The position numbers and the translations under genes are program-made. A stretch of 44,202 nucleotides of DNA from positions 1-44,202 of the forward strand of contig NZ_JALM01000103.1 of the NCBI RefSeq assembly GCF_000737195.2, in the 5' to 3' direction. Numbering within the stretch: position 1 is the stretch's first letter; each line of letters opens with the position of its first letter. This document shows, in pieces, positions 16,991 to 42,472 of the stretch. The notes below the pieces were generated by a model. That model did not search any database and was not told the DNA's origin. It was given only the letters and a program-made list of their open reading frames with translations. This DNA comes from Sciscionella sediminilitoris (lineage in GTDB: Bacteria > Actinomycetota > Actinomycetes > Mycobacteriales > Pseudonocardiaceae).

Positions 16991-17005
16991 GTTCAATCCG
17001 CGCTT

Positions 17006-17257
17006 TCAACTGTGCCGGTACCCGGCTCCCTGATCGAGGAGAGCGACCAGGTCATCGACGGTGGGGTGATCGTGGAGCAGATCCGCGTCGAGTTCGCGGC
17101 GCAGTTCGGCCTCGAGCTCGCCGACAAGGGCGACCGCGGACACCGAGTCCATGCCCTGCTCGGTCAGCGGGCGCTCCGGGCTGATCCGCGAGGGTGCGAC
17201 GTCCAGCAGCAGCGCGACCCGGCCGAGGATCCAGGCGCGCAGGTCGTCATCGGCCAT
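17006..17257 (-). CDS. free acyl carrier protein
   Basis: Acyl carrier protein of 83 residues. Ser38 in GMDSVSAVAL is the phosphopantetheine attachment site; the rest has the usual four-helix length and acidic character. It should receive a fatty acyl group from the adjacent ligase and present it to the first NRPS condensation domain, as DptF does beside DptE in daptomycin assembly. The ATG lies inside the end of the ligase gene (11-base overlap), which argues for coupled expression. Longer upstream in-frame starts would read far into the ligase and add residues that do not look like protein, so I chose this one. The NRPS start follows 15 bases later. Confidence 0.92.
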   Translation of the reverse strand: MADDDLRAWILGRVALLLDVAPSRISPERPLTEQGMDSVSAVALVGELEAELRRELDADLLHDHPTVDDLVALLDQGAGYRHS

Positions 17258-21515: not shown

Positions 21516-22523
21516 ATGAACGCCCCGTTGCGCTTCGGGATCATCGGATGCGCCGATATCGCGCGGCGCAAGATGTTGCCGGCACTCGCCGCCGAACCGT
21601 CCACAGTGGTCACCGCCGTCGCCAGCCGCGAACTCGCCAAGGCGAGGACGCTGACCGGCCGATTCGGCGGCGATCCGGTGCAGGGCTACGACCGCCTGCT
21701 GGACCGTGCCGATGTGGACGCGGTCTACCTCCCGTTGCCCGCCGTGCTGCACGCCGAATGGATCGAGCGGGCGTTGCGGGCAGGCAAGCACGTGCTCGCC
21801 GAAAAACCCCTCACGACGGACGCCGCGCGGACCGAGGAGCTCTACGCGCTGGCGCGAGAACGGCGGCTCGTGCTGTTCGAGAACTTCATGTTCCTGCAGC
21901 ACTCCCAGCACGCCGCGGTCGCCGGACTACTCGCCGACGGGGGGATCGGTGAGTTGCGCGGCTTCGCCGCCACCTTCACCATCCCGCCCAAGCCGTCCGG
22001 CGACATCCGCTATCAGCGCGAGATCGGCGGCGGCGCGCTCGATGATATCGGCGTCTATCCGGTCCGCGCCGCACTCCACTATCTGACCGGGGATGTCGCG
22101 CTCACCGGAGCCGTACTGCGCCAGGATCCGGAGCACGACGTGATCGTCTCCGGCAACATCCAGCTGCACACCCCCACCGGAATCCCGGCACAACTCCAGT
22201 TCGGCATGGAACATGCCTACCGCAGCAGCTACGAACTCATCGGGAGCACGGGCCGGCTGCTGCTGGACCGCGCCTTCACCCCACCGCCCTCGCTGCCGCC
22301 GGTCGTCCGGATTTTCCAGCAGGACCACTACCACGAACTCACGTTGCCCGCCGACGACCAGTTCCGCAAGGTCGCCGCGCTGTTCGCCACCGCCGTCTCG
22401 AGCGGGGCCCCGCTGCTCGAGCACCGCAACGGATCGATCCGGCAGGCGAGGATGATCGAGACCATCAAAGCAGGCGCCGAAGTACGGCGCACCACGGCCG
22501 AGCCGGCCGGAGCACGTTCGTGA
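21516..22523 (+). CDS. NDP-hexose 3-ketoreductase (Gfo/Idh/MocA family)
   Basis: Oxidoreductase of 335 residues. The N-terminal Rossmann motif is FGIIGCADIARR; AEKPL holds the conserved catalytic-region Lys, and GGGALDDIGVYPVRA matches the family's second block. In deoxysugar operons such enzymes reduce the C3 ketone made by the 2,3-dehydratase, giving NDP-4-keto-2,6-dideoxyhexose with C3 equatorial or axial. Its position right after the 2,3-dehydratase supports this role. GAGGAG lies just before the ATG. The stop overlaps the next gene's GTG by four bases. Stereochemistry cannot be predicted from sequence. Confidence 0.9.
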   Translation: MNAPLRFGIIGCADIARRKMLPALAAEPSTVVTAVASRELAKARTLTGRFGGDPVQGYDRLLDRADVDAVYLPLPAVLHAEWIERALRAGKHVLAEKPLTTDAARTEELYALARERRLVLFENFMFLQHSQHAAVAGLLADGGIGELRGFAATFTIPPKPSGDIRYQREIGGGALDDIGVYPVRAALHYLTGDVALTGAVLRQDPEHDVIVSGNIQLHTPTGIPAQLQFGMEHAYRSSYELIGSTGRLLLDRAFTPPPSLPPVVRIFQQDHYHELTLPADDQFRKVAALFATAVSSGAPLLEHRNGSIRQARMIETIKAGAEVRRTTAEPAGARS

Positions 22524-23395
22524 AGGGGATCGTCCTCGCCGGCGGGACCGGCACCCGGCTGCACCCGATCACGCTTCCGGTCTCGAAGCAGCTCCTCCCG
22601 GTCGGGAACAAACCGATGATCTATTACCCGATCTCCGTGCTGATGGTCGCCGGTGTCCAGGACATCCTGTTGATCACCCGGCCGGCCGATGTCCCGATGT
22701 TCCGGACACTGCTCGGGGACGGCACGCACCTCGGCCTGAACATCAGCTACGCCGAACAGCCCCACCCGAGGGGAATCGCGGAGGCGCTGATCATCGGCGC
22801 CGACCACATCGGGCAGGAGCACTGCGCGCTGGTGCTTGGCGACAACATCTTCCACGGCACTCGCTTCGGCCGGCTGCTGCAAAGCGAGACGCGCACGATG
22901 GACGGGTGCACGCTGTTCGGTTACCGGGTGCCGGATCCCGAGCGATACGGGGTCGGCGTCACCGACGAGGACGGCAGGCTGATCGCCATCGAGGAGAAGC
23001 CGTCCAGTCCCCGTTCCGATCTGGCGATCACCGGCCTCTACCTCTACGACAACGAAGCCGTCGACATAGCCAAGAACATCCGCCCCTCGGCACGGGGCGA
23101 GCTGGAGATCACCGACGTCAATCGGATCTACCTGCAACGCGACCGGGCCAAGCTCGTCGATCTCGGCCGCGGCTTCGCCTGGCTGGACACCGGAACGCCG
23201 GAATCGCTGTTGCAGGCCGGACAGTACGTCAGCATGCTGGAGGAACGGCAAGGGGTGCAGATCGCCTGTCTGGAAGAACTGGCGCTGCGGATGGGTTTCA
23301 TCGACGCCGAGTCCTGCCACCGGCTGGGCGAGAGGATGGCGGGTTCCGGATACGGGCGCTACCTGATGAGCATCGCCCGCGAACTCGCGAGCTGA
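22520..23395 (+). CDS. rmlA: glucose-1-phosphate thymidylyltransferase
   Basis: Makes dTDP-glucose from glucose-1-phosphate and dTTP, the first step of the deoxysugar route. At 291 residues it has the standard length. The N-terminal GIVLAGGTGTRLHP nucleotide-binding loop, SKQLLPVGNKPMIYYP, LGDNIFHG, EEKP and AWLDTGTPESLL are all present. Starts with GTG, coupled to the reductase stop. It is the last gene of the sugar operon; a strong hairpin follows. The 4,6-dehydratase (RmlB) needed next is not in the window. Confidence 0.96.
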   Translation: MKGIVLAGGTGTRLHPITLPVSKQLLPVGNKPMIYYPISVLMVAGVQDILLITRPADVPMFRTLLGDGTHLGLNISYAEQPHPRGIAEALIIGADHIGQEHCALVLGDNIFHGTRFGRLLQSETRTMDGCTLFGYRVPDPERYGVGVTDEDGRLIAIEEKPSSPRSDLAITGLYLYDNEAVDIAKNIRPSARGELEITDVNRIYLQRDRAKLVDLGRGFAWLDTGTPESLLQAGQYVSMLEERQGVQIACLEELALRMGFIDAESCHRLGERMAGSGYGRYLMSIARELAS

Positions 23396-27547: not shown

Positions 27548-27675
27548 GGCACCCGATCCTCGCTACCGGCCGGAAATGAGTTTAGGCCGGGGCTGAAACA
27601 CGTACGCGACCGGCGATGCGCGCTGTTAGGTTTGCCGGGACTGCCCTGGTGCGGAAACGATGGGGAGAGGCTGAC

Positions 27676-30600
27676 GTGAACCAACAGTCCCGAGTCATCC
27701 AAGACATCCTGCCACTTTCCCCGCTGCAGGAAGGTCTGCTGTTCCACAACCGGCTCACCGAGGAGGCCGGGGGAACCCGGGGCATCGACGTCTACGTCGG
27801 CCAGGTTGTCCTCGAGCTGGCCGAGTCGATCGACATCGCCCGGCTACGGCAGGCCGCCCAGTCCTTGCTTGACCGGCACGACAGCCTGCGTGCCTGCTTC
27901 CGGCCACGCAAATCCGGTGAGCTGGCGCAACTCATCACGCACTCGCCCACCTTGGCATGGCAGGAGGTTTCGGCGTCCCGGGCCGATGCCGAACAGCTGG
28001 TCGACGCCGAGCGGGAACGGGCATTCGACCTCGAGAGACCACCACTGCTGCGGTTCCTGCTGATCCGCGTCGAGAACGGCTGTCGGCTGGCACTCACGTT
28101 CCACCACATCGTGGTCGACGGCTGGTCGCTTCCGGTGCTGGTGCGGGAATTGCTGGCGCTGTACCGGAAAGCCGAACTGCCTTGCCCGCGCCCGTACGGT
28201 GACTACCTGCGCTGGCTGACCGCCCAGGACCGGGATGCCGCGCTGGCCGCCTGGCGCGCGGCGCTCGGCGATGTCGAGACGCCGACACTGGTCGCACCCG
28301 AGGCGTCCGCGCGGCCGGTCTTCCCAGAACAGCTGCATCGCGAACTGTCCGAAGTAGACACTGCGCGGCTCGTGCGGTGGGCGCGCTCGAACGGGTTGAC
28401 CCTCAACACCGTCGTGCAGGGCGTATGGGGCGTGGTGCTGGGCGGTTTCACCGGACGCGCGGACATCCTCACCGGCATCACGGTGTCCGGCAGGCCGCCG
28501 GAGCTCGACGGCGTCGAATCCATGGTCGGCCTGTTCGTCAACACGGTGCCACTGCGAGTCTCGCTGGACCCGCGAGAGCATCTCACCGCACTGCTGAAGC
28601 GGTTGCAGTCTGAGCAGTCCGCGCTGCTGGCCCACCAGCACATCGGACTCGCCGACATCCTGGCCGGGGCCAAACTGTTCGACACACTGTGCGTGTTCCA
28701 GAACTACCCGTCCAGCGAGTCCACTGTGGACAGTGAACCGGTGGTCACGAACATCGCGGCCCGGGGCGGCGACACGACCCACTATCCGCTCACGTTCATC
28801 GTCGGACCGGGCCGCACGCTGCGGTTCCACCTCGACTACCGCCCGGATGTGTTCCACCGCGCGACCATCGAGTCACTCGCCGACCAGGTGCTGCGGCTGC
28901 TCGGCAGCGCCGCCGACGCCGCGGACACACCGGTCGGCCGGATCCAGCTGCTCGGCGAGGAAGAACGCGCGCGGTTACGCCGGCGCAGCGAAGGCCCCGG
29001 CGATGTGGCGGTCCCCGGCGCGACGATCCCGGAGCTGTTCGAAGCACAGGCACGCCGCACACCGGAGAACACCGCCGTCGTCCGCGGTTCCGCGCGGCTG
29101 TCTTACACCGAGCTGGACGAGTCCGCGAATCGGCTGGCCCATCATCTCGTCGACCGCGGCATGGGGCCGGGATCGGTGGTGGCGCTGCTGCTGCCGCGCG
29201 AGCTGGAACTGGTGCCCGCCGTGCTCGGCGTGCTCAAGTCCGGCGCGACGTACCTGCCGATCGACCCGCAGCAGCCGAACGAGCGGCTGCGGTACCTGCT
29301 CGGTGACGCGTCCGCGAACCTGCTGCTGACCGTGCGCTCGCAGGCCGAGCGGTTGCCCGGGGACCTGCCCGCGCAGGTCCTCGTACTGGACGATCCGCGG
29401 CTTCCGCTGGCCGACTGCCCGGCAACCGCGGTCACCGGGACCGCTCCGCTGCTGCCGCAGCACCCCGCCTACATCATCTACACCTCCGGTTCCACGGGCG
29501 CACCGAAGGGTGTCGTCGTGACGCACGAGAACGTCGTGCGGCTGCTGACCGCGACCGAGCGGCACTTCGGGTTCGCCGAAACCGATGTGTGGACGCTGTT
29601 CCACAGCTACGCCTTCGACCTTTCGGTGTGGGAGATGTGGGGTGCGCTGCTCTACGGCGGCAAGCTCGTCGTCGTACCACACTCGGTCAGCCGCGCCCCC
29701 CGGGAATTCCTGGCGCTGCTCGCCGAGGAGCGTGTGACCTTCCTGAACCAGACACCCTCGGCGTTCTATCAGCTGGCCCAGGCCGATGCCGAGCGTCCGG
29801 GCCACGAACTGGCGCTGCGGCACGTGGTGTTCGGCGGGGAGGCACTCGAACCCGCGCGCCTGGCGGACTGGTACTCGCGGCACCCCCATGACGCGCCCCT
29901 GCTGTCGAACATGTACGGCATCACCGAGACGACCGTGCACGTCAGTTATCTGGCGCTGGACAAGGACATCTCGCACAGCATGATCGGCGGGCCCATCGCC
30001 GACCTTTCCGTCTATGTGCTGGACGGCAACCTGCGCTTGGTGCCGCCCGGGGTGACCGGTGAGCTGTATGTCGCGGGTCCCGGCCTGGCGCAGGGTTATC
30101 TGGGGCAGCCCGGCCGCACGGCATCCCGGTTCGTGGCGAACCCGTTCGGCACCGGCCGGTTGTACCGCACCGGCGATCTCGCGCGCCACACCGGCGACGG
30201 GCTGGAATACCTCGGCCGGTCCGACCAGCAGGTGAAGGTACGCGGGTTCCGCATCGAGCTCGGTGAGGTCGAGGCGAAGATCGTCGCGCAGCCCTCGGTC
30301 ACGGACGCGGCGGTGGTACTGCGCGAGATCGCCCCCGGAGACCAGGGCCTGGTGGCCTACCTGGTCGGTGAACCGGTCGAGGTGCCGGTACTGCGCGAAC
30401 AGCTCAAGGCCGTGTTGCCCGATTACATGGTACCGGCCGCGTTCGTGGTGCTGGAGCAGTTTCCGTTGACGGTCAACGGAAAGCTCGACCGCGCAGCCCT
30501 TCCCGCACCGCGGCGTCCGGTTTCCGGCAGTGGTCGTGCGCCGCGCGGCCCGCGCGAGGAGCTCGTGTGCGAACTGTTCGCCGAGGTGCTCGGTGTCGGC

Positions 30601-30768
30601 TCGATCGGGGTGGACGACGACTTCTTCGAACTCGGTGGGCACTCGCTGACCGCGGTGCGGCTCGCCGGGCGGATCCGGTCCGCGCTGGGGGCCGAAGTCT
30701 CGGTTCAGCAGGTCTTCGACAACCCCACCCCCGCCCAGCTGACCGACTGCCTCGAAGCCCCGCGCTGA
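27676..30768 (+). CDS. stand-alone NRPS module, C(DCL)-A-T
   Basis: Single-module NRPS of 1030 residues. The C domain begins [15 protein letters not shown] and carries HHIVVDGWS; this start is typical of DCL domains, which join a D-residue donor to an L-amino acid. The A domain has [11 protein letters not shown] and NGKLD; specificity positions read D-L-W-N-V-G-M-V-H, one change (Leu for Phe) from the Thr-like A3 code. The T domain has FFELGGHSL. No thioesterase or epimerisation domain. The short N-terminus before the C core resembles a communication-mediating acceptor, fitting the tail of the four-module NRPS. GTG start with GGGGAGAGG upstream; the in-frame ATG 20 codons earlier lacks such support. 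It follows the two-component system on the same strand. Acting between the two minus-strand NRPSs is my inference. Confidence 0.93.
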
Positions 30769-30792: not shown

Positions 30793-32175
30793 TCAGTCCG
30801 CCGGGACGGTCTCGCGCAAACCCTGCAGGCTCAGCACCATGTTCTTGATGTCGGTCACCGGCACGCTCTCCGGCAGGTCGAGCTCCCGTGAGCACAGCAC
30901 CAGCGGCGAGTCGGCGGCCGTGTCCGGCAGCCTGCCGTGCGATCCGCGCACCCATCCCGCGTCGGTCGGCACCATGGACATCCGGTAGCGCAGCCCGGCC
31001 CGCTTGCGGACCAGGTTCATGGCGGCTTTCGCCTTCGCCAGCGGGTCGGCCGGATCGAAGAAGAGCTCCGCGGGGTCATAGCCCGGCTTGCGGTGAATCT
31101 CGACGCCCCGGGCGAAATCCGGGGCGTGCGCGTCCTCGTTCCAGTAGTAGTACGTGAACCAGGCGTCCGGTTCCGCCACCAGTACCAGCTCTCCAGCACG
31201 GGCATGGTCGATTCCGTACGCGCGTTGCCCTTCCCGATCGAGCACCTGGTCCACACCGGGCAGCTCGGCAAGGACCGCCCGTGCCCGCGACAGATCGGTG
31301 GCTTCCGGGACGTACACGTGCGCGATCTGGTGATCGGCGACCGCGAATGCCCTGGAGGTCCACGGATCCAGGTATTCCATCCCCTCCTGGGTGTACACCT
31401 CGAGCAGCCCCGCGGCACGCAGTGCGCGGTTCACGTGCACCGGGCGCGATACCGCGGTAATGCCGTACTCGCTGACCACCAGCACCGTGATGCCCGAAGC
31501 CGCCGCCTTCTCGAGCAGCGGGGCGGCCGCCGCGTCCACCGCGCGTGCCGCGCGCGCGGCCGCGGCCGAGTCCGGCCCGTACCGCTGCAGGTCGTAGTCC
31601 AGGTGCGGCAGGTAGGCCATAGTCAGCTCCGGCGGATCGTCCAGCACCCGCATCCCGGCGGCGGCGATCCACCGGGACGAGGCGATGGCTGCCGTCGGCC
31701 CCCAGTACTGGAACAACGGGAACGGCCCCAGCTGCGCGGTCAGCTCGTCGTGCAGCCGCGGCGGCCGGACATAGCAGTCCGGGGACTTGCGGCCGTCCGC
31801 GTGATACACCGGCCGCGGGGTCACCGTGATGTCCGTGCTGGCGCCCATCGCATACCACCAGCACAGGTTCGCCGCCCGGTAGCCGGGGATCTCGGCCCGC
31901 GCCGCCTCCCAGATCTTCGTGCCGCCGACTAACCGGTTGTGCTGTCGCCACAGGTGAATCTCGCCGAGATCACGGAAGTACCACCCGTTTCCGACGATCC
32001 CGTGTTCGGCGGGCAGCAGCCCGGTCAGCATCGAGGACTGCACGCTGCAGGTCACCGCGGGCAGTACCGGCCGCAGCCGGGCCCGGGTGGCGAGCCGGCC
32101 GAGGTTCGGCATGTGTTCGAGCAACCCGGCGGTCAACCCGACAACGTTCAGTAACAGCACCCGCCCGCAGCTCAT
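30793..32175 (-). CDS. eboF: EboF-like alkaline-phosphatase-superfamily phosphodiesterase
   Basis: Protein of 460 residues of the type I phosphodiesterase/nucleotide pyrophosphatase group. The nucleophile region is PAVTCSVQSSMLTG, with Thr as the expected nucleophile, followed by AEHGIVGNGWYF. Further metal-site candidates are YLPHLDYDLQRYG, VVSEYGI, and HVYV after ADHQ. In ebo operons this gene (EboF) closes the set and its substrate is unknown; a prenyl- or metabolite-linked phosphodiester is possible. No signal peptide is apparent, so it probably acts in the cytoplasm. The ATG overlaps the eboE stop by four bases. It is the last gene of the seven-gene operon and converges on the plus-strand NRPS. 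Family is firm, role unknown. Confidence 0.85.
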   Translation of the reverse strand: MSCGRVLLLNVVGLTAGLLEHMPNLGRLATRARLRPVLPAVTCSVQSSMLTGLLPAEHGIVGNGWYFRDLGEIHLWRQHNRLVGGTKIWEAARAEIPGYRAANLCWWYAMGASTDITVTPRPVYHADGRKSPDCYVRPPRLHDELTAQLGPFPLFQYWGPTAAIASSRWIAAAGMRVLDDPPELTMAYLPHLDYDLQRYGPDSAAAARAARAVDAAAAPLLEKAAASGITVLVVSEYGITAVSRPVHVNRALRAAGLLEVYTQEGMEYLDPWTSRAFAVADHQIAHVYVPEATDLSRARAVLAELPGVDQVLDREGQRAYGIDHARAGELVLVAEPDAWFTYYYWNEDAHAPDFARGVEIHRKPGYDPAELFFDPADPLAKAKAAMNLVRKRAGLRYRMSMVPTDAGWVRGSHGRLPDTAADSPLVLCSRELDLPESVPVTDIKNMVLSLQGLRETVPAD

Positions 32176-33269
32176 CGCGGCACCGCCGCCGACAGCCGGG
32201 CACCGGCCCAGGCCAGCTCCGCCGCGATCCCCGGGACCAGCGGCTCGCGGTGCGCGCGCGGCAACACCGACCAGGTATAGGTTTCCACCTCGACCGGCAC
32301 ATCCTGGTCGAGGTCCCCAAGCACCGTCTCGATCACCTCGGTGGTCGCCCGCAGCGGAGCCCGGGGGCGGGCATGCAGCGGAACATGGAAATGCACCCGC
32401 CACGGTGCGCGCCCCGGCAGCGTGCCACCCAGCGCGTCCGCCAGGTCGTCCGCGCCACCCACGGACCGTTCCCGGACCTGGTGCAGATACCGCCCTTCGG
32501 CGAACTCCGCGAGCGCATCGCGCACCGCGGGGTCCATCGGGTCGGGCACCTCCAGCGCTGCCGATGCCTGCACCTTGGCCACCCGAAGCCCGGCGTCCGC
32601 GATCGAGGCGACGGTCGCGGACGGGTCCGCCCAGGACACCGCGAGGTGGCAGGTGTCAAGGCAGATACCGACCAGCTCCGGATCCACCCGGCCGGCCAGC
32701 CAATCCACCGCGTCGGCGACCGTGTCCAGCACACAACCGGGCTCGGGTTCGACCGCGAGCCGGATCGGCCGGCCCGCCCGCTCCCCCGCCGCGGCACACG
32801 CCCGTGCGGCCTCGGTCAGGCCCGCGGCAGCGCTCGCGTCATCGGCCGCCGTCCAGGGGGTTCGCCAGCCGAGCGGCAAGGTCGAAATGCTGCCCGCCCG
32901 CGCGTCATCGGCCAGCAGCCCGGCCAGCACCGTGGCGCAGTTCGCGGTGTAGCGCACTCGCGCCTGCTCCGTCCACGCCGGCCGGTAGACATCGTGCCGG
33001 ACGCGTTCCCGGTGGAAACCGCCGTACGGGAATGCGTTCAGCGTCAGCACATCCAGCCCGCGCGCGTCCAGCTCACCGCGAAATCGGCGCACCGCCGCCG
33101 GATCCGCGGCCAGCCCCTCGGCCACTCCGGCGGCCAGCCACAGTCCCAGTCCCAGCCGGTCGGCGCCGAGCTGGTGGCGCACCGGAAGCGAATACCGGTC
33201 CAGCTGCTCCAGTATCCCGGGCAGGTCCTCGGCCGGGTGCACATTGGTGCAGTAGCAGAGCTTGCTCAC
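32172..33269 (-). CDS. eboE: EboE-like TIM-barrel protein
   Basis: Protein of 365 residues of the xylose-isomerase-like TIM-barrel superfamily. It opens with KLCYCTNVHPAED and includes LNAFPYGGFH, AVEPEPGC, GICLDTCHLAV, VHFHVPLH and VEVETYTW, the pattern of EboE proteins, with His, Glu and Asp residues suited to a divalent metal site. EboE acts in export or maturation of secondary metabolites in cyanobacteria; its chemistry is not known. GTG start overlaps the eboB stop (GTGA) and the stop overlaps eboF. A second, unrelated-looking TIM-barrel gene lies upstream in the same operon. Assignment rests on motif pattern and neighbours. Confidence 0.85.
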   Translation of the reverse strand: MSKLCYCTNVHPAEDLPGILEQLDRYSLPVRHQLGADRLGLGLWLAAGVAEGLAADPAAVRRFRGELDARGLDVLTLNAFPYGGFHRERVRHDVYRPAWTEQARVRYTANCATVLAGLLADDARAGSISTLPLGWRTPWTAADDASAAAGLTEAARACAAAGERAGRPIRLAVEPEPGCVLDTVADAVDWLAGRVDPELVGICLDTCHLAVSWADPSATVASIADAGLRVAKVQASAALEVPDPMDPAVRDALAEFAEGRYLHQVRERSVGGADDLADALGGTLPGRAPWRVHFHVPLHARPRAPLRATTEVIETVLGDLDQDVPVEVETYTWSVLPRAHREPLVPGIAAELAWAGARLSAAVPR

Positions 33270-34132
33270 GGTCGTTCCCCTCGCAGCACCGAATTTCCCT
33301 CGAACACGGTGGTTTCCTCCGGCGGCTCGGGGAACGGCTCGGGATTCAGCCTGCCGGACTGGCCGTAGAAGTCGACGGGGTTGCGCCACAGCACCGTATC
33401 CACATCGCATTCGGTGAACCCGGCGTCCAGCATCGCGAGCGCCACCCGGTAGGTCTTCAGCGGATCCGAGCGGCCCCAGTCCGCCGCCGAGTTGACCAGC
33501 ACGCGTTCGGTGCCGTACTCCCGCAACACCCGGACCATGCGATGCTCGTCCATCTTGGTGTCCGGGTAGATCGAGAAACCCATCCAGCAGCCGCTGTCCG
33601 CGACCAGGTCCACGGTCGTCTCGTTCAGGTGATCGATCAGCGCGTATTGCGGCGACACTCCCGATTCGGCCAGCACGTCCAGGGCGCGCCGGGTACCGGC
33701 CAGCTTGTCCCGGTGCGGGGTGTGCACCAGCACGGGGAGTTCGAATTCGAGCGCCAGTTCGAGCTGGCGTTGCAGCGCGAAATCCTCTTCCGGGGTCATC
33801 GAGTCGTAGCCGACCTCGCCGACCGCGACCACGCCGTCCTTGGCCAGGTATCTCGGGAGCACGTCCAGCACCTCGACACAGCGAGGATCGTTGGCCTCCT
33901 TGGGATTCAACGCGATCGTGCAGTGGTGCCGGATGCCGAACTGCCTGGCACGAAAACGTTCCCAGCCGATCAGCCCGTCGAAGTAGTCCACGAACGAACC
34001 CACCCCGGTACGGGGCTGGCCCAGCCAGAACGCCGGCTCCACCAGGCCCCGCACACCCACCGCGTGCATGTTCTCGTAGTCGTCGGTGGTGCGGGAGGTC
34101 ATATGGATATGGGGGTCGAAGATCCTCAACAC
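33266..34132 (-). CDS. eboB: EboB-like TatD-family metal-dependent hydrolase
   Basis: Protein of 288 residues with the amidohydrolase/TatD metal site: DPHIHM near the N-terminus, GEVGYD in the middle, VHTPHRD, IDHLNE, and a final Asp in SAADWGRSDP. These are the expected His, Glu and Asp ligands. EboB proteins form a distinct branch of this family and their substrate is unknown. GTG start overlaps the eboA stop by seven bases; the next codon TTG is a less likely alternative. The longer upstream reading would run into eboA in another frame without protein character. Probably cytoplasmic. Confidence 0.86.
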   Translation of the reverse strand: MLRIFDPHIHMTSRTTDDYENMHAVGVRGLVEPAFWLGQPRTGVGSFVDYFDGLIGWERFRARQFGIRHHCTIALNPKEANDPRCVEVLDVLPRYLAKDGVVAVGEVGYDSMTPEEDFALQRQLELALEFELPVLVHTPHRDKLAGTRRALDVLAESGVSPQYALIDHLNETTVDLVADSGCWMGFSIYPDTKMDEHRMVRVLREYGTERVLVNSAADWGRSDPLKTYRVALAMLDAGFTECDVDTVLWRNPVDFYGQSGRLNPEPFPEPPEETTVFEGNSVLRGERP

Positions 34133-34713
34133 TGTGCTCCCAACGTCAGCAGGTACTCGGCATCCGCGCCCGGCGGGCGGCCCGCGGCCCGGCGTTCCTC
34201 GGCGAAATCCTCGACCATGCGCGACAGCTCGGCGTCCATCTTGGTGCGCAGTCCGGCAACCGCGCGCACCGGAATGCCCATGAACAGCACTTTCAACACA
34301 CCGTGCCGCCACTCGTGCTGCCCGAGGTGCTCCGCGGCGAACCGCCCCATCGCCACCGCGACCAGCCTGGTGTCGTTGCTGCGCAACGCATCGCGCACCA
34401 GCGAAACCCCGGTTTCGGCACAGGATCGCGGCAACAGCGGCAGGCCGCGCAGTACACCGCGCCGTTCCGCATCATCACCGTGCCGATACAACTCGCCGAC
34501 CATCGCGGGCAACCGTGCCGGGGCACACGAGTCCGCGAGTACCACCAGCAATTGACAGCGCGCCCTGTCCTCCACGCTGCCGTACACCAGGCCGTCCCGG
34601 TCCAGTTGCGGGTACAGGGCGGCACGTCCCACCATCCGGCCCACCGCGGGGAACAGCGTGTGCACCGCGGAGGGGCACTGCCGGATCCGTTCCTCGGCTC
34701 CTTCCAGCCACAT
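34126..34713 (-). CDS. eboA: EboA-like protein
   Basis: Protein of 195 residues, mainly alpha-helical by composition, with no catalytic motif I can recognise. Features that fit EboA are the segment LPRSCAETGVSLVRDALRSNDTRLVAVAMG interrupted into helices, then an LGQHEWRHGVLKVLFMGIPV block and a Glu/Arg-rich C-terminus. Identity rests mostly on its place directly before the TatD-like gene, as in other ebo operons. ATG lies one base after the preceding stop. Function of EboA is unknown in any organism as far as I know. Confidence 0.75.
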   Translation of the reverse strand: MWLEGAEERIRQCPSAVHTLFPAVGRMVGRAALYPQLDRDGLVYGSVEDRARCQLLVVLADSCAPARLPAMVGELYRHGDDAERRGVLRGLPLLPRSCAETGVSLVRDALRSNDTRLVAVAMGRFAAEHLGQHEWRHGVLKVLFMGIPVRAVAGLRTKMDAELSRMVEDFAEERRAAGRPPGADAEYLLTLGAQC

Positions 34714-34714
34714 C

Positions 34715-35554
34715 TCACACCACCGCCGTGGCAGCGGCGTTCAGCGCGCGCAGGGAGGCGGCGGCCAGCACAGGGGCCGCGTGACTGTGCCGGGGCAATT
34801 CCACGGCGGCGACGCCCCGGTACCCGACCTCGTCCAGGGCGGCCAGCGTCGCGGGCAGATCAAGCTCCCCCTCCCCGAACGGCAGATGCTCGTGCACGCC
34901 CGCACGCATATCGTCGAGTTGCACGTTCACCAGCCACGGCGCTGCGGCCCGCACACAATCGGCGGCCGACCGGTCCTCGACGGCGACACAGTGCCCGACA
35001 TCCAGGGTGATCCCGAGGGCCTCCGGATGCCCCAGCTCGGCCCGCAGCCGGAACAACGCGGGCAAGGTGTCCACCGCCATGCCCGGCTCCGGTTCGAACC
35101 CCAATCGCATGCCCCGCGCGCCCGCGTACTCCACCAGCGGCGGCAATCGATCCCGAAGCCGTTGCCAGGCCACGGTTTCCGGCACATCCCGGGGAACGGT
35201 CCCCGACCACAGCGAGACACATTCCGCGCCGAGCCGCTCCGCCACCCGTACCGCGCTCCTGGTCAGCTCCATCCGCGGTTCCGCAGCCTGGCTCACCAGG
35301 GTGGGCTCGTGCTTGTCGCGGGGGTCCAGAAGATACCGGGCTCCGGTCTCCACCACGCGGCGCAGTCCCAGTTCGTCCAGCAGGGCGGCGACCCGGTCCG
35401 TTCGGGCCGGAATATCGGTGGCGAGCGGATCAAGATGATGATGGTCGAGCGTGATGGCCACTGCCGAGTATCCGGTGTCGGCCAGCAGCCGCAGCGCGTC
35501 CTCCAGCCGATGACCGGCGAACCCGTTCGTGTTGTAACCGAGCGCGTAGGTCAT
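34715..35554 (-). CDS. sugar-phosphate isomerase/epimerase-like TIM barrel
   Basis: TIM-barrel protein of 279 residues. It begins ALGYNTNGFAGHRLEDALRLL and has AITLDHHH, GFEPEPGM, GITLDVGHC and AAVELPRH, the metal and substrate positions expected of the xylose-isomerase-like (AP_endonuc_2) superfamily. It is shorter than and clearly different from EboE. Such enzymes isomerise or epimerise sugars, inosose-type cyclitols or related keto compounds. Sitting between an inositol-phosphate synthase with a prenyltransferase and the ebo genes, it might act on a cyclitol; that is inference. ATG overlaps the UbiA stop by four bases. Confidence 0.85.
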   Translation of the reverse strand: MTYALGYNTNGFAGHRLEDALRLLADTGYSAVAITLDHHHLDPLATDIPARTDRVAALLDELGLRRVVETGARYLLDPRDKHEPTLVSQAAEPRMELTRSAVRVAERLGAECVSLWSGTVPRDVPETVAWQRLRDRLPPLVEYAGARGMRLGFEPEPGMAVDTLPALFRLRAELGHPEALGITLDVGHCVAVEDRSAADCVRAAAPWLVNVQLDDMRAGVHEHLPFGEGELDLPATLAALDEVGYRGVAAVELPRHSHAAPVLAAASLRALNAAATAVV

Positions 35555-36369
35555 GTCGGACTCGCCTTCCTGGCCAGCAACCGGGCGACCGGATATGCGG
35601 CAGCCACCATCGCCGCCCTCCGCTGTGCCCCGCCGGCGGCTACCAAGGTGGCCTGCAGGGGAATCATGCCGTGGATGCCCGCCGCTGTCGCCCTGCGAAC
35701 CGCATTCGCGCCACGGTCCCGCGCGGCCCGCAGCTGGGCATGCCCGACCGTTGCCGCATAACCGATCCGCCACGGCATGCCCGCCGATCCACCGCTCGCC
35801 GCACAGATCGCGGTCGCGGTCAACGCCAGCGCGCACGCCCCAGGCCCGGCACCGTGCACCTCGCCGCGGGAAAGCACGGTGACCCCCACCGTGTGCACCG
35901 CCAGCACCGTCGCGGCACGGGCCGCGGGCGCGCCGGGCGCACCGAGCAACACATCCAGCCCCCGGCACAGGGCCATCGTCGCCGGTCCCGCGGCGGTGCG
36001 CTTCGCATAACCGTCATAGCAAGCGATCGCGCCGGTCAGGGCCGCGGCGACCGGAACCGCGGCCCGACCTCCGCCGATCGCCGCGAACACCATCCCCGCA
36101 CCGGCGAGTCCCCCGGCCGCGGCCAGCGCAGCCGCGGGCCGGATCTCTCCTGAGGGGATGGGCCGCTCCGGCCGCTCCACCGCGTCCACCCTCCGGTCCG
36201 CCCAGTCGTTGAAAACCATGCCGGACCAGTAGAACGACGCGGAAGCCAACGGCAGCAACAACCTTCGGCCGCGCAGTGGCCTACCGCCCGCCGCGGCGCC
36301 CGCGACCGTGTCACCGAGCGCTGTCAACGCCGCGGGCGCCCGGAGCAGACGTAACCATGCCGCAGTCAC
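35551..36369 (-). CDS. eboC: UbiA-family prenyltransferase (EboC-like)
   Basis: Integral membrane prenyltransferase of 272 residues with about seven to eight hydrophobic segments. The first aspartate-rich motif is NDWADRRVDAVERPERPIPSGE, slightly over the usual core NDxxDxxxD, and a shorter second motif is YDGYAKRT. It should transfer an isoprenoid chain from a diphosphate onto a polar acceptor at the membrane. EboC in ebo operons has the same family membership. Next to inositol-phosphate synthase, an inositol-like acceptor is a reasonable guess. GTG start overlaps the stop of the inositol-phosphate synthase (GTGA); a longer upstream reading overlaps that gene and looks non-coding. Substrates unknown. 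Confidence 0.88.
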   Translation of the reverse strand: MTAAWLRLLRAPAALTALGDTVAGAAAGGRPLRGRRLLLPLASASFYWSGMVFNDWADRRVDAVERPERPIPSGEIRPAAALAAAGGLAGAGMVFAAIGGGRAAVPVAAALTGAIACYDGYAKRTAAGPATMALCRGLDVLLGAPGAPAARAATVLAVHTVGVTVLSRGEVHGAGPGACALALTATAICAASGGSAGMPWRIGYAATVGHAQLRAARDRGANAVRRATAAGIHGMIPLQATLVAAGGAQRRAAMVAAAYPVARLLARKASPT

Positions 36370-37502
36370 GAGGTCGCCCACCACCGCAACTGCTCGGCCT
36401 GCTGGGCCAGCCGGAGCTCGGCGCTGCCGACCGGTTCCTTGAAATAGAACCCCAACGCGCCCAATGGCCCGCTTTCCCCGCGCGCCTGCGCTCCCGCCAC
36501 CAACCGGGCGAGGTCGAGAACCAGCGGTGCGGCCAGCGCGGAATCGTAGCCGTCCCAGGACAGTTGCAGGTTCATCCGGGCGCCGAGGAACCCCTCGAAC
36601 GAGATGTAGTCCCAACTGACCTTGCGCTCGCCCAGTTCCGCGACATTGTCGATATGCAGCGGAGCCGGGATATCGGCACCCAGCAGCGACTCCAGCACCT
36701 GGCCCTTGGAGGCGAGTTTCCCGGCAGCACGTTCGGCATCACCCAGATTTGCGCCGTCTCCCCCGCCGAGCAGATTCGTCCCGGACCACGATCGGACCGG
36801 CAAGGCGCGGGCCGCGAACATGGGCGCCAGCACCGATCGCAGCAACGTCTGCCCCGTCTTGGCATCGGCACCCGCATAAGGAACTCGCTGCCGCAAGGCC
36901 AGCTCGGCGAGTGCCGGGTACCGGATACCCGGCGACGGGGTGAACTCCACATAGCCACAGCCCGCCCGCAGCGAGGCGTAACACCCCAGCGCGGTAACCG
37001 GCAGCACATCCCGGCCCTCGCCGAGCGTGCGCTCCAATGCCGTCAGGTCGTGGTGCTCCGGCTGATCGGGCACCGGGGGCTCCGTGCTCGTCACGTTCAC
37101 CACGACGACCCTGTCCAGCCGATGCCGATCACGGAACTCGGCGATCTCCCCGCCGATCCGGTCGGCCGCCGTGCCCTGCTCCTGTGCACCCCGTTGATAG
37201 CCGGTGCGGAGCTCTTTCTCGACGGCTTCGAGCTCATCACCCACCGCGCGGACCGCATCATTCGGGAGCAGCCCGTCCGCCGCCAGCAACTCGGCGCGCT
37301 TGACGAGCGGGACATCGACCACGTCATGACCGCCCACCACGAGCTGTGACCAATTCGGGAAGCACTCCGGCAGGTCGAGGGTTTCGGTGACACAACCGGT
37401 AGCGGGGTACAAACCCTTGCGCACCGCGGCAAGGCCGCAGATCGCTGTCACGGCAACGGATCCACGGGCGCCGAAAAACCACAACCCGACCCGGTCAGCC
37501 AT
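36366..37502 (-). CDS. ino1: myo-inositol-phosphate synthase
   Basis: NAD-dependent enzyme of 378 residues that cyclises glucose-6-phosphate to inositol phosphate. The N-terminal NAD-binding segment is LWFFGARGSVA; later come NVTSTEPP, FTPSPGIRYPALAELA, AGADAKTGQTLLRS with the catalytic Lys region, and WSGTNLLGGGDG. Length is near that of actinobacterial enzymes. GGAGGC lies six bases before the ATG, which is why I prefer it over the in-frame GTG 13 codons upstream. It is the first gene of the seven-gene ebo-like operon and diverges from a winged-helix regulator. A pathway-dedicated copy is likely, since actinomycetes usually have a housekeeping one elsewhere. Confidence 0.92.
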   Translation of the reverse strand: MADRVGLWFFGARGSVAVTAICGLAAVRKGLYPATGCVTETLDLPECFPNWSQLVVGGHDVVDVPLVKRAELLAADGLLPNDAVRAVGDELEAVEKELRTGYQRGAQEQGTAADRIGGEIAEFRDRHRLDRVVVVNVTSTEPPVPDQPEHHDLTALERTLGEGRDVLPVTALGCYASLRAGCGYVEFTPSPGIRYPALAELALRQRVPYAGADAKTGQTLLRSVLAPMFAARALPVRSWSGTNLLGGGDGANLGDAERAAGKLASKGQVLESLLGADIPAPLHIDNVAELGERKVSWDYISFEGFLGARMNLQLSWDGYDSALAAPLVLDLARLVAGAQARGESGPLGALGFYFKEPVGSAELRLAQQAEQLRWWATS

Positions 37503-37892
37503 TTCGATGCCTCCAGTATTCGGCGACGGTGCTGGCACCATTCACCCTGTCAAGGCTGCCCCTGCCGCACATCCTCTTTCACCCCAGCCGAAAACACTGG
37601 TGTCCACATTGGACTGTCGACGATCACACCCGCGCCCGAGAAGAACGACACATCCGCGCACGGAACGTATCGATGCGCTGCTACACATCCCGCACCGTCG
37701 GGGCACGGTCGGTGACCAGTCGCCCGCACTTGGGGGATATGTTGAGTTTTCACCCAATCCGGGGTATTTTTCGATGGTCGTTTGTCACATATCCTACCGA
37801 TTAGTTCCATTTTGAGCCGGCTGCTGGGGCCCGGTTTCCGGCGAGTATTTCTGCCACCGGGTGCTGTCCGGCGAGACGGGGAGGGCGGGAAC
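37503..37892. other. 390-base divergent intergenic region
   Basis: Non-coding stretch between the ebo-like operon (minus) and a winged-helix regulator (plus), locally AT-rich around 37735-37815. It holds a good plus-strand promoter (listed separately). For the minus strand, a perfect TTGACA is present at 37553-37548 but lacks a matching -10 at 16-18 bases, so the ebo promoter may need an activator. Short ORFs here have no ribosome binding site. Confidence 0.65.
37742..37770 (+). promoter_or_regulatory. predicted promoter of the first winged-helix regulator
   Basis: TTGAGT (37742-37747) and TATTTT (37765-37770) are 17 bases apart, a good housekeeping-type pair. Transcription would start near 37777, giving a leader of about 115 bases. 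Confidence 0.55.
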
Positions 37893-39025: not shown

Positions 39026-39832
39026 TCAAGAGGAATGGAAGAATTCGATGATGCTCTTGTTCACCATTTCCGGGCTTTCCAAGTAGCCGTAGTGACCTGC
39101 CTCCGGGACGAGTTCGAAGGAGGAACCGGGGATGAGCGCGGCGAGTTCACGACCGGCTCGAGGCGGGGTGATCAGGTCATCGGCGAAGGAGATCACGTGG
39201 CAGGGCACGGCAATGTGCCGGTAGGCGTCCCGCCGGTCGGGCATGGGTTCGAGCTTCAGCTGAGCCAGCAGGCCCTGTTTCGTAGCGCCGTTTCCGAGTT
39301 CGAACAGATCCAGCCAGTCGACGATGGACCGTTCGTCGTCGAGTGAGCTCGGGGACAGCATCTGCAAGGCACGCACGATGGCGGCGTAGCCACTCGGAAC
39401 GGCAACCCCGCTCTCCGCCAGTTCCCGTTCGCCACGCGCCAAAGCCGCACGGGCGGCATCGCTGCGCGCGCGGCTGGCCATCAGCACGGCCTGGCGCACG
39501 AGGCCGGGACGGGCCAGGCAGAGTTCCTGTGCCAGGTAGGCACCCATGGAGGTGCCGATGATCCGGGCCGGCCCGATCCCGAGGCTCTCGATCAATCCGA
39601 TGACATCGCCGAGCATGTCCTCGATGGTGAACCCGCTGGAACATTCGTCGGTGGGCGGAATCCCCCGGTTGTCCACCAGAACGGCCTGGAACCCCGCCGC
39701 GTTGAGCGCCGGAACCTGGTGCATACGCCAGCTCTGCGCCGTGCTGCCGCTGCCCATCAGCAACACGACCGGATCGCCGGAGCCGTGCACCTGATAGTGC
39801 AGCCGGATTCCGTTGACATTCAGGATCGGCAT
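39026..39832 (-). CDS. alpha/beta-hydrolase
   Basis: Hydrolase-fold protein of 268 residues with a full catalytic triad: Ser in IIGTSMGAYLA, Asp in ISFADDLITPP and His in EAGHYGYLESPE; an oxyanion-type HGSG lies near the N-terminus. No signal peptide, so cytoplasmic. It is the third gene of the MbtH-acylase operon, 20 bases after the acylase. GGAG lies six bases before the ATG. It may act as an editing or releasing thioesterase, since no thioesterase domain is visible in the NRPSs, or as a tailoring or resistance hydrolase. The sequence looks closer to general esterases and peroxidases of this fold than to type II thioesterases, so the role stays open. Confidence 0.85.
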   Translation of the reverse strand: MPILNVNGIRLHYQVHGSGDPVVLLMGSGSTAQSWRMHQVPALNAAGFQAVLVDNRGIPPTDECSSGFTIEDMLGDVIGLIESLGIGPARIIGTSMGAYLAQELCLARPGLVRQAVLMASRARSDAARAALARGERELAESGVAVPSGYAAIVRALQMLSPSSLDDERSIVDWLDLFELGNGATKQGLLAQLKLEPMPDRRDAYRHIAVPCHVISFADDLITPPRAGRELAALIPGSSFELVPEAGHYGYLESPEMVNKSIIEFFHSS

Positions 39833-39852
39833 GAGATGCTCCGTTCCATGGC

Positions 39853-42228
39853 TCAGCGCAGGGCGATGACCCGCAGCGCGGGCGAGGCGAGGATCTGGGA
39901 CCGCGTGAACCGGTCCGGTACCCATCGTCCGGCGGAGAACAGCCGGGTCTGGTCACTGAAATGTGGTGAGCCGGGGTCGGCCGACTGCGCGTAGGTCAGC
40001 AGCGTGGATCCGCTCGGCCCCGCCGCGGTGAACTGGATCGACTGGATGAAGCTGGAACCGCTCGTCACCTCGGTGTTGCCGCGACGGGGATCCCAGACCG
40101 GGGTGATCACGTTCAGTACGCCGGTCTGGTGCGGGGCACCGTGGATCGGGATGGTCTCGCCGTTGCGGGGCACCGCCTGGTACTGGCCAAGACCGGCATC
40201 CGGCGCGATGCCCGCAGCACGCAGCTCGGCGACCGCGGTGCCGAACGCCTTCTGGACCTCGGGATTCGCGGTGTTCAGCGAGTTCGGCGTGTGGACCGGG
40301 TCGCGTAGGTCGAACGGAACCTTCCACAGGTCACGGACACCGCCGAGGCCTTGCACGAAACGCTGGAACAACAGGGATCCCTTGCTGTGGACGGTGAACC
40401 GTCCGTCCCAGGTGGACAGTGCGCCGCAGTAGGGTGCGACGTCGGCCGGGCCGGTACTCGATGGGGCGATTCCGCCGGGGAACGCCGCGCACATCCTGGC
40501 CGTGTCCTCGGCGGCGAGCTCCGCGGCGCGGCTGGCGTCCGAGAACAGGATCGACCGCATGCTCGCGGCATCGAATCCCTTACCGGGCAAGCCATCAACG
40601 CCGGAGAGGCGCCGTTGAGCGGACAGGATGCCCTGTTGGGTGCGCAGTGACGGCGCGGTCCCGATGCTGCCCATGGTGCGCGGGTAGCCGGTGATCGGCT
40701 GCGCGGGGTTGGCCAGCCAAGCGGAGTCGTTGGAGTTGGTGACGAAGTCCGCACGGTCGCGCTGTGGCTGCCGGGACGGGCCGAGTAGCCCCGGTGCGGC
40801 CGAGTCCGGATCGGTGCGCCAGGAGCAGTCGCCGCGGGAGCCATCCACAATGGACAGACCGGCGGCCCGATAGGTCTGCTTGCCCATCGCGGTACCGCAT
40901 CGGTCCACGTACTCCTCGGTGACTCCGGGGGCAGCCTGGATATCGGCGAACAAGGCGCGGCCACGCCGGTCCACCGCGAGGGTGTTCACCCATGGCACGC
41001 CCTGAGTTCCGGCGAGGGTGCCGCGCACGCCATCGGTGCTCCGCGCGGTATCGAGGCCGAACCAGGTGTTGAGCAGCCGCAGGTTGCCCTGATTCGCGTC
41101 GCGCAACGAGAACACGTTTCCGCTCCAAGGCAACGGGACACCTGACGGACCGCTGGTGATCACCGGACCATAGCGGGTTCCGTAGATCGTCTTGGTGACC
41201 GGTGCTCCGCCGGCGAGCGGCACACTGATCCTGGTCGTCGTCATCTTTTCCGGTTTGCCGTCCACCAGATAGCTCGTCGGGTCACCGGGCACGGTGGGGT
41301 TCTGGAACAGGCCGAACGTTGTCGCCGTGGAGACCGTATGGCTCCAGGCCACCTCGGCGTTGTGCCCGATCATCACGATCGGCATGCCGAGCAGGCTGGC
41401 GCCACTGGCGTTGAATTTACCGGGGATGGTCAGCTGTGCCTGCCAGAACCGGCGCGGACCGCGCCACGGGTAGTGCGGATTCCCCAGTAGCGCACTGCGC
41501 ACTCCCGGCTTGGTGCCGCCACTGCCCGCCGCGATCGCATTGCTGCCCAGATCGTGTTCGGCGGCCCGGGCGCGCGCCGCGGCGACCAACTTCCCCGCAC
41601 TGGGCACCGCGGACTCGACGGCACCGGACGGTGGGGCCGCGCCGATCATCCCCTCGGCGGCGGCTCCGGACCCGGTGACGACGGCCAGCGCATAGGCGTG
41701 GGTGTACACATCGAGATCGCTGATCGGCCGAAGCCACGGCTTGCCCTTGCATGCCGGGTCCGTGACTCGCCCGCCGGCCAGATACTTGTTATATCCCTGC
41801 GCGAATCCGTGCACGAGCTGGCGAACTTCGGGGCGTGGACCGGCCGGTGCCCCGGCCGCCAGCGATCGCCGCACCGCGCCCGTGGCCGAGAGGTAGCGGA
41901 AGTACGTGTCGCTGCTGAGGTTGGTATCGGCGTTCGCCAGCGAGGTATCCGCCGGGCCGGACGCGCCGAGATAGCGGGACCGGTCGCCGCGCACCGTGAG
42001 GTACACCTCGGCCAGCGTACAGAGATTGTCCTTGGCCTCGGCGAAACCGTAACCGTAGCCGAGATCGGTGAAGTTGCGAGCCTCGATGTGCGGGACGCCG
42101 TGCTCGGTGTATGCCAGTGTGGCACGGGCACCGGAGGACGGGGAATCCCGCGCCGTCGTGGCCGCGCTCAGGCCGGGAACCAAGGCGAGCGCGGCCACCA
42201 CCAGCACTACGGTGATTCGTTTTAGCAC
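39853..42228 (-). CDS. secreted Ntn-hydrolase acylase (PvdQ/aculeacin acylase type)
   Basis: Acylase of 791 residues that hydrolyses amide-linked acyl chains. It has a basic start (LKR) and a hydrophobic stretch ending near SAATTA, a signal peptide. Penicillin-acylase fold precursors cleave themselves before the catalytic Ser; here that is Ser229 in LGSNAIAAG, preceded by Gly as required. NPHYPWRG and a following FWQAQLTIPG match the PvdQ, AhlM and aculeacin-acylase group, which remove long acyl chains from lipopeptides or acyl-homoserine lactones, rather than penicillin G acylase. GTG start with GAAGGA upstream; a longer GTG start overlaps the mbtH stop and would bury the signal peptide. In a cluster with FAAL and ACP it could deacylate the exported peptide; that is inference. 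Confidence 0.9.
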   Translation of the reverse strand: MLKRITVVLVVAALALVPGLSAATTARDSPSSGARATLAYTEHGVPHIEARNFTDLGYGYGFAEAKDNLCTLAEVYLTVRGDRSRYLGASGPADTSLANADTNLSSDTYFRYLSATGAVRRSLAAGAPAGPRPEVRQLVHGFAQGYNKYLAGGRVTDPACKGKPWLRPISDLDVYTHAYALAVVTGSGAAAEGMIGAAPPSGAVESAVPSAGKLVAAARARAAEHDLGSNAIAAGSGGTKPGVRSALLGNPHYPWRGPRRFWQAQLTIPGKFNASGASLLGMPIVMIGHNAEVAWSHTVSTATTFGLFQNPTVPGDPTSYLVDGKPEKMTTTRISVPLAGGAPVTKTIYGTRYGPVITSGPSGVPLPWSGNVFSLRDANQGNLRLLNTWFGLDTARSTDGVRGTLAGTQGVPWVNTLAVDRRGRALFADIQAAPGVTEEYVDRCGTAMGKQTYRAAGLSIVDGSRGDCSWRTDPDSAAPGLLGPSRQPQRDRADFVTNSNDSAWLANPAQPITGYPRTMGSIGTAPSLRTQQGILSAQRRLSGVDGLPGKGFDAASMRSILFSDASRAAELAAEDTARMCAAFPGGIAPSSTGPADVAPYCGALSTWDGRFTVHSKGSLLFQRFVQGLGGVRDLWKVPFDLRDPVHTPNSLNTANPEVQKAFGTAVAELRAAGIAPDAGLGQYQAVPRNGETIPIHGAPHQTGVLNVITPVWDPRRGNTEVTSGSSFIQSIQFTAAGPSGSTLLTYAQSADPGSPHFSDQTRLFSAGRWVPDRFTRSQILASPALRVIALR

Positions 42229-42253
42229 AAGGGTTCCTTCCACGCACCCCGGA

Positions 42254-42472
42254 TCAATCGGCACCGTCCATCGCGTCGGCGAGGGACTTCGGCCGCATGT
42301 CCGTCCAGTTCTCTTCGATGTAGTCGAGCGCCGACTGGCGATCGGTCTCCTCCAGGACGACCTTCCAGCCGTCCGGGACCTCCACGAAGGACGGCCAGAG
42401 CGAGTACTGGAGCTCGTCGTTGATCAGCACCAGGTAGCGACCGTCCGGGTCTTCGAAGGGGTTGGTGCTCAT
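42254..42472 (-). CDS. MbtH-like protein
   Basis: Small NRPS helper of 72 residues that binds and stabilises adenylation domains. It has the conserved [24 protein letters not shown] start broken by family-typical positions, then VPDGW and a final [11 protein letters not shown]. The family's conserved Trp residues are all present. ATG is preceded by GGAAAGGA. It heads a three-gene operon with the acylase and hydrolase instead of sitting beside an NRPS. It may serve any of the NRPSs here. Confidence 0.95.

Follow-up and report, generated by a model that had tools for sequence, protein, structure and literature searches.

A predicted ebo operon of Sciscionella sediminilitoris with an inositol-phosphate synthase and a second TIM barrel in place of EboD

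Operon structure

The window analyzed here is the entire 44,202-base contig C103 (NCBI RefSeq NZ_JALM01000103.1) of the Sciscionella sediminilitoris genome (7.4 Mb; 96.9% complete). Profile searches of the window placed an ebo-type operon on the minus strand at positions 30793 to 37541, with seven packed genes in the order ino1-eboC-TIM2-eboA-eboB-eboE-eboF, the same genes and order that a sequence-only reading of this DNA had given. Here, we report that the operon keeps the EboA, EboB, EboC, EboE, and EboF core of ebo systems, with EboD replaced by an inositol-phosphate synthase (Ino1) with an intact active site and by a second TIM barrel (TIM2), and that this exchange recurs at other loci.

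The ino1 gene (36366 to 37541, minus strand, as for all seven) occupies the EboD slot and encodes an archaeal-type inositol-phosphate synthase (PF07994, 138 bits; PF01658, 100 bits). Its candidate starts are the first ATG, at 37541, and the second in-frame ATG, at 37502, where the earlier reading had ended the operon; starts marked ~ below were estimated from profile matches. It is followed by eboC (35551 to ~36378), encoding a UbiA-like prenyltransferase of the SCO3242 family (NF045897, 298.5 bits; cut-off, 260), and by TIM2 (34715 to ~35563), encoding the second xylose-isomerase-like TIM barrel (PF01261, 121 bits). The remaining genes are eboA (34126 to 34713; NF035938, 146.4 bits; cut-off, 50), eboB (33266 to ~34150; TatD-like metal hydrolase; PF01026, 46 bits), eboE (32172 to ~33290; TIM barrel; NF035939, 404.9 bits; cut-off, 250), and eboF (30793 to ~32193; type I phosphodiesterase/phosphatase; PF01663, 211 bits); no secretion signal was recognized by eye in the EboF sequence. 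Homologs of EboA, EboB, EboC, EboE, and EboF are therefore adjacent in the window, EboC being assigned via the SCO3242 model (it scored 137.6 bits against the EboC model NF035940, below the cut-off of 250) and EboA via the domain model (55 bits against the stricter family model NF035937, below the cut-off of 320). With the estimated starts, adjacent genes abut or overlap by at most ~25 bases, so that one transcript for all seven is likely. No EboD was found in the operon or its surroundings. The host genome has a single dehydroquinate synthase match, on another contig (C16), and two Ino1 genes, one on C46 and one in the operon.

Distribution of the two cyclases

Co-occurrence of Ino1 and EboD was judged in fetched stretches (mostly ~20 kb), the whole genome being checked for the window's genome alone, and genes were counted with hidden Markov models built in this analysis, with set score limits (EboC fell below its limit in L169, L181, L192, and L203). 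Ino1 was present at 56 loci and EboD at 76, with both together at none.

EboE was present in 19 of 396 actinobacterial genomes (18 above the cut-off). These 19 hold 20 EboE-bearing places, the window included, and 17 of the places carry Ino1 and TIM2 with EboA, EboB, EboC, EboE, and EboF and without EboD; a block of the same seven genes found together this often is not due to chance. The other three are L029, the only one with EboD and carrying neither Ino1 nor TIM2; L026, without a cyclase, in a genome that carries a second, complete operon; and L043, where EboE is broken and a cyclase was not found. Among 80 named loci from other phyla, which were reached via an EboF alignment with the EboD-type L029 as its first sequence and therefore lean to the EboD type, 73 had EboD and none had Ino1; the other seven comprised EboF alone (five), EboE with EboF (one), and a 5.3-kb contig (one). 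Two new Pseudomonadota loci (L164 and L165) were also EboD-type. In genus g8, probably Streptomyces, 38 loci that were hand-picked for long contigs, not at random, had Ino1 (32 loci), EboD (0), or neither (6), and 11 further loci, from nine genomes without a strong PF06439 match, had Ino1 (7 loci), EboD (0), or neither (4, one of them at a contig end). In a maximum-likelihood phylogeny of EboF (80 sequences), a branch supported at 100/100 set apart the 49 rows outside the Ino1 and cyclase-less groups, which are labelled EboD but include L052, L060, and L062, where EboF alone was seen; with that branch, a single cyclase exchange would explain the distribution.

The observation that Ino1 fills the EboD slot is thus right and general, and an Ino1 gene beside a separate EboD, sought in all stretches, was found in none. 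As a description of the exchange, the sequence-only reading was incomplete: Ino1 plus TIM2, not Ino1 alone, stands for EboD, and TIM2 occurs without either cyclase at 10 loci of one genus. No report of Ino1 replacing EboD was found in the literature searched, coverage of subscription journals being thin.

Enzymes of the operon

The window Ino1 matched Archaeoglobus Ino1 (1u1i; the organism is presumably Archaeoglobus fulgidus) over nearly its full length with 195 bits, far above its match to 1gr0 (44 bits), which we take to be the mycobacterial inositol-phosphate synthase. Its N256, K279, and K368 align with N255, K278, and K367, the positions changed in 3qw2, 3qvw, and 3qvx (read from PDB alignments), and we assume that these residues have a catalytic role. 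Across 56 ebo-Ino1 sequences, K228, N256, D262, K275, and K279 were present in all 56, and K307 and K368 in 55 (one gap). The protein has both the family profile and the catalytic Lys and Asn residues of myo-inositol-1-phosphate synthase; since its nearest match is the Archaeoglobus enzyme and its catalytic residues are intact, it is probably active.

EboB, EboC, EboE, and EboF have many residues that are identical across Ino1-type and EboD-type operons; in EboB, 84 columns at 90% or above are common to EboD-type EboB. The long lists of common residues in EboB, EboE, and EboF argue that the later steps may be the same in both operon types. Definition of a UbiA prenyltransferase includes a second Asp-rich motif. 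EboC keeps the first UbiA Asp motif (NDxxDxxxD) in both operon types, and T165 and E171 stand where the second is expected, again in both. Positions 14 and 134 of EboC differ strictly between the operon types, which are also two clades, so no specificity can be read from them.

TIM2 has an intact metal-type set of invariant residues (E157, E159, D188, H191, and E255). The nearest folds to its model (predicted local distance difference test [pLDDT], 95.9) are ketose 3-epimerases, with IolI at rank 40; the EboE model (pLDDT, 92.8) is more distant from these, and both models give general sugar-isomerase folds and nothing more specific. At the score limit used, TIM2 was confined to Ino1-type operons and the cyclase-less subtype, TIM-barrel matches in four other loci being weaker (103 to 233, versus at least 373 for TIM2). 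The part of PMC5133447 available notes that a xylose-isomerase-like domain can be joined to actinobacterial EboA, and L041 (positions 6959 to 8629) holds EboA and TIM2 in a single open frame like the fusion described there.

The cyclase-less subtype consists of EboC, TIM2, EboA, EboB, EboE, and EboF without a cyclase and was found at ten g8 loci (L026, L151, L156, L158, L168, L171, L180, L186, L188, and L193). A P450-like open reading frame (ORF) adjoins nine of the ten, and one member was confirmed as p450 by Pfam. At eight of the ten, the cyclase-less copy is a second ebo locus in a genome with an Ino1-type operon elsewhere; it was the sole EboE locus found in G460 (L151) and G408 (L158). 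These operons may be supplied with inositol by synthesis at another place in the cell. A phosphopantetheinyl transferase homolog directly follows eboF in L027 (7008 to 7862) and L153 (7093 to 7926), which belong to one clade; L027 lies near nonribosomal peptide synthetase (NRPS) genes.

Genomic neighbors

On its lower-coordinate side, the window operon is flanked by NRPS genes (up to 30768), an AMP-binding ligase gene, nucleotide-sugar genes, and a two-component pair. An NRPS stretch (2954 to 16996, minus strand) encodes five condensation and four adenylation domains, and the AMP-binding ligase (17247 to 19013, minus strand; PF00501, 210 bits) is possibly a fatty acyl-AMP ligase, judging from its position. 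A further NRPS (27616 to 30768, plus strand; condensation-adenylation-thiolation) faces eboF and ends 24 bases from the eboF stop. Positions 21516 to 23395 encode a Gfo/Idh/MocA dehydrogenase and a nucleotidyl transferase, which suggests that nucleotide sugars are made and that the peptide is perhaps glycosylated. Beyond ino1 are genes for a helix-turn-helix protein, an alpha/beta hydrolase (39026 to 39925), and a penicillin-amidase homolog (39853 to 42264), the last two possibly NRPS tailoring enzymes; no NRPS gene was found on this side within the contig. With all NRPS and AMP-ligase genes on one side, the operon, described earlier as inside a lipopeptide cluster, lies beside an NRPS cluster; both "inside" and "lipopeptide" are likely.

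A general tie to lipopeptides did not hold. In the fetched stretches, NRPS domains were near 1 of the 38 g8 loci (L183) and near the operon in 1 of 16 other Ino1-type genomes (G352), with a weak adenylation-type match in L152, one of the 11 further g8 loci; among the matches listed, 6 of the 16 genomes had no condensation-domain match. Lipopeptide export as the general role of ebo was rejected, a constant association with product genes being lacking at these counts.

The common neighbors are genes for 3-keto-sugar metabolism and secreted sugar dehydrogenases, the two often together. Flank clustering and Pfam searches of 14 Ino1-type genomes gave a ROK regulator (9/14), a sugar ATP-binding cassette (ABC) importer gene (9/14), a Gfo/Idh/MocA dehydrogenase (7/14), and an additional TIM barrel (7/14). 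Also present there were a glucose/sorbosone dehydrogenase (GSDH), which is secreted and carries PKD and CBM6 domains, and ThuA together with a 3-keto-disaccharide hydrolase. Of the 17 actinobacterial Ino1-type genomes, 10, from four families (f5, f3, f17, and f32), had GSDH no farther than ~10 kb from EboE, where their own GSDH numbers would predict 0.25. In g8, it was beside 29 of the 38 loci, that is, 29 of the 32 with Ino1 and none of the 6 without a cyclase. With the GSDH profile, it was also found by the EboD-type operons of 9 Pseudomonadota genomes out of 14 (expectation, 0.21), the loci having been picked by EboF similarity and L107 (5.3-kb contig) excluded, and beside one Bacteroidota locus, for 10 of the 80 named loci in all; Pfam supported the five proteins tested. 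An even draw of ~398 Pseudomonadota genomes gave only two new ebo genomes.

The 3-keto-disaccharide hydrolase family PF06439 exceeded its curated cut-off in 12 of 19 ebo-positive and 20 of 377 ebo-negative actinobacterial genomes (P = 3e-10), the EboE and PF06439 counts being taken to cover the same 396 genomes. Copies above 100 bits that lie on a different contig from ebo or at a distance of more than 100 kb were present in 11/19 versus 3/377 genomes, the 100-bit limit (best E under 1e-30 within the genus) having been chosen after the list had been viewed; those three are all of the ebo-negative genomes with any copy above 100 bits. In g8, PF06439 was present in 98 of 107 ebo-positive and 4 of 43 ebo-negative genomes; it lies next door at 31 of the 38 loci, so that this association is mostly physical linkage.

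PqqC was present in 2 of the 17 actinobacterial Ino1-type genomes, and pyrroloquinoline quinone (PQQ) is thus seldom self-made in these actinobacteria. In 3 of the 17 cyanobacterial stretches, secreted NHL/SGL-type beta-propellers stand ahead of eboA (the third is truncated at the stretch edge; some of the Pfam matches were below the cut-off). By position and by the description in the available part of PMC4870267, they are probably ScyD/E/F, ScyE being a periplasmic protein of the beta-propeller clan.

Three further arrangements were seen. In L034 (298 to 4092), a very large, apparently secreted ORF beside ebo joins GSDH, ThuA, and 3-keto-disaccharide hydrolase in one frame, with similar ORFs in L028, L032, and L035. 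L037 distributes these domains over two proteins, which also carry CBM6, PKD, and ricin-lectin domains. L162 (G405) has the sugar-oxidation neighborhood with ebo reduced to an EboF-like piece, for which loss or an assembly fault is possible.

Interpretation

Two ideas on the product of ebo are already in print, as far as the available text of each source goes: Yurchenko 2016 (PMC5133447, section 3.7) proposed an isoprenoid-cyclitol for EboD-type operons, and Klicki 2018 (PMC6282210) suggested a lipid carrier, with export inferred. A prenylated cyclitol as the shared theme of ebo systems, also put forward in the sequence-only reading, is consistent with the gene content described here.

We favor, with confidence somewhat short of even, an account in which EboD and Ino1 are interchangeable cyclases at the head of a single pathway, whose product, a prenylated compound derived from a cyclitol, tentatively serves extracytoplasmic oxidation; the prenylated cyclitol part of it is likely. 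Ino1 would convert glucose 6-phosphate to inositol phosphate, which TIM2, EboB, EboE, and EboF would tailor (isomerizing or dehydrating it and removing the phosphate), and membrane-bound EboC would attach the tailored ring to an isoprenoid. The EboD-type operon would arrive at an equivalent ring from a different sugar phosphate, and the product would be a membrane-soluble prenylated cyclitol-derived compound. Most tentatively, this product may be a cofactor or electron carrier for extracytoplasmic redox enzymes, typically secreted six-bladed beta-propellers (GSDH; cyanobacterial Scy); secreted beta-propeller oxidoreductases are the common denominator of the neighbors, which suggests a membrane-soluble redox helper.

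This account is supported by the exclusivity of Ino1 and EboD, the EboF tree, the Ino1 residues and common core residues, the association with GSDH and PF06439, and the scarcity of PqqC in actinobacteria. Support also comes from Ubi-297, a flavobacterial EboC homolog described as farnesylating quinoline-type ring acceptors in vitro (PMC9235831, available in part). The Nostoc mutants point the same way: scytonemin is reported to be lost, and its monomer to accumulate, alike on deletion of any of five ebo genes and of the beta-propeller gene scyE (PMC6282210; PMC4870267; both available in part). In its strongest form, the product of ebo would be a redox cofactor or electron carrier of a new kind, prenylated and derived from a cyclitol, that secreted beta-propeller oxidoreductases use, its ring made by either of two unrelated cyclases (EboD, or Ino1 with TIM2), and the scytonemin "export" defect would be secondary to a dead periplasmic oxidation; this form we consider improbable.

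Several points weigh against the favored account. The Ino1 product cannot be read from the fold, and the substrate may differ, since the relative 6k96 is a five-membered-cyclitol-phosphate synthase. GSDH was missing from the surroundings of the window operon, of all six cyclase-less loci in the set of 38, of 70 named loci out of 80, and of the two independently drawn Pseudomonadota loci (L164 and L165), so that the 9/14 figure rests on the EboF-picked loci. The co-occurrence tests treat genomes as independent, with kinship uncorrected. PqqC was present in 6 of the 9 GSDH-linked Pseudomonadota genomes, and Scy-type beta-propellers in only 3 of the 17 cyanobacterial stretches. In the available part of PMC9235831, Ubi-297 gave no product with phenols or catechols. 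In that of PMC6282210, the Nostoc scytonemin monomer does not leave the cytoplasm in ebo mutants and reaches the periplasm too in the scyE mutant; this confinement, seen in ebo mutants only, favors export over a missing cofactor.

The main competitor is export: a prenylated cyclitol would be a lipid handle that carries a metabolite, such as the scytonemin monomer or a lipopeptide, across the membrane, and Ino1 would alter the head group alone. The monomer is cytoplasm-confined in every ebo mutant, and its release to the periplasm is given as 6% versus 21% (PMC6282210, available in part); the window operon lies beside NRPS genes, L027 and L183 have NRPS domains nearby, and L152 has the weak adenylation-type match. 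However, GSDH (10/17 genomes) and genes for sugar uptake, that is, for bringing substrate in (a sugar ABC importer gene in 9/14), are commoner as neighbors, the six Ino1-type genomes noted above lack a listed condensation-domain match, and profile searches placed none of the seven operon genes in a known transporter family. We regard export as rather unlikely, albeit the closest rival.

Less probable still is that the operon makes a prenylated inositol-derived metabolite or membrane lipid as its own end product, no helper, with merely co-regulated neighbors. The P450-like ORF at all but one of the 10 cyclase-less loci, such as a natural-product cluster would have, and the isoprenoid-cyclitol of Yurchenko 2016 (PMC5133447, in the part available) would fit this, but co-occurrence with the 3-keto hydrolase holds for distant copies (11/19 versus 3/377). 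That Ino1 and the barrels process an imported sugar in 3-keto-sugar breakdown, EboC being no prenyltransferase here, is very unlikely: the ROK, sugar ABC importer, Gfo/Idh/MocA, TIM-barrel, GSDH, and ThuA-3-keto-hydrolase neighbors would suit it, but operons that lack such neighbors, the window's included, have the same EboB, EboC, EboE, and EboF with the same conserved residues, and sugar breakdown offers no evident task for a UbiA-type membrane protein.

The ebo genes occur in many phyla and in algal plastids, and a clean swap for an unrelated, well-studied cyclase narrows the ring precursor to a cyclitol. The Ino1 type opens Streptomyces as a tractable host and inositol as a labelled precursor for finding the product. 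For the account of two interchangeable cyclases, the sugar-dehydrogenase neighbors give a testable use that differs from the published export model; no report tying ebo to sorbosone dehydrogenase was found in the literature searched, the available part of PMC6282210 uses sorbosone dehydrogenase as a periplasmic marker, and the term does not occur in PMC5133447.

Comparison with known systems

The window Ino1 is like that of Archaeoglobus fulgidus in its near-whole-length sequence match and catalytic residues; unlike it, it sits in an actinobacterial operon and its product is predicted only. In Streptomyces coelicolor, we take SCO3237 to SCO3241 to be the remaining ebo genes. SCO3242 ("putative transferase") and SCO3243 (myo-inositol phosphate synthase) are listed, without a stated role in the available part of PMC3610822, among the genes of the calcium-dependent antibiotic (CDA) cluster, and no described function for either was found in the literature searched. 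The CDA lipopeptide cluster and the window share this pair of a transferase and an inositol-phosphate synthase, and NF045897 is named after SCO3242; CDA is another peptide than that of the window cluster. Ubi-297 and the window protein have the EboC family in common, Ubi-297 coming from a gene set with eboD (PMC9235831, in the part available). Like canonical eboABCDEF, the window operon has EboA, EboB, EboC, EboE, and EboF homologs in one block with common residues; unlike it, the operon is without EboD, has Ino1 and TIM2, and runs in the order Ino1-C-TIM2-A-B-E-F.

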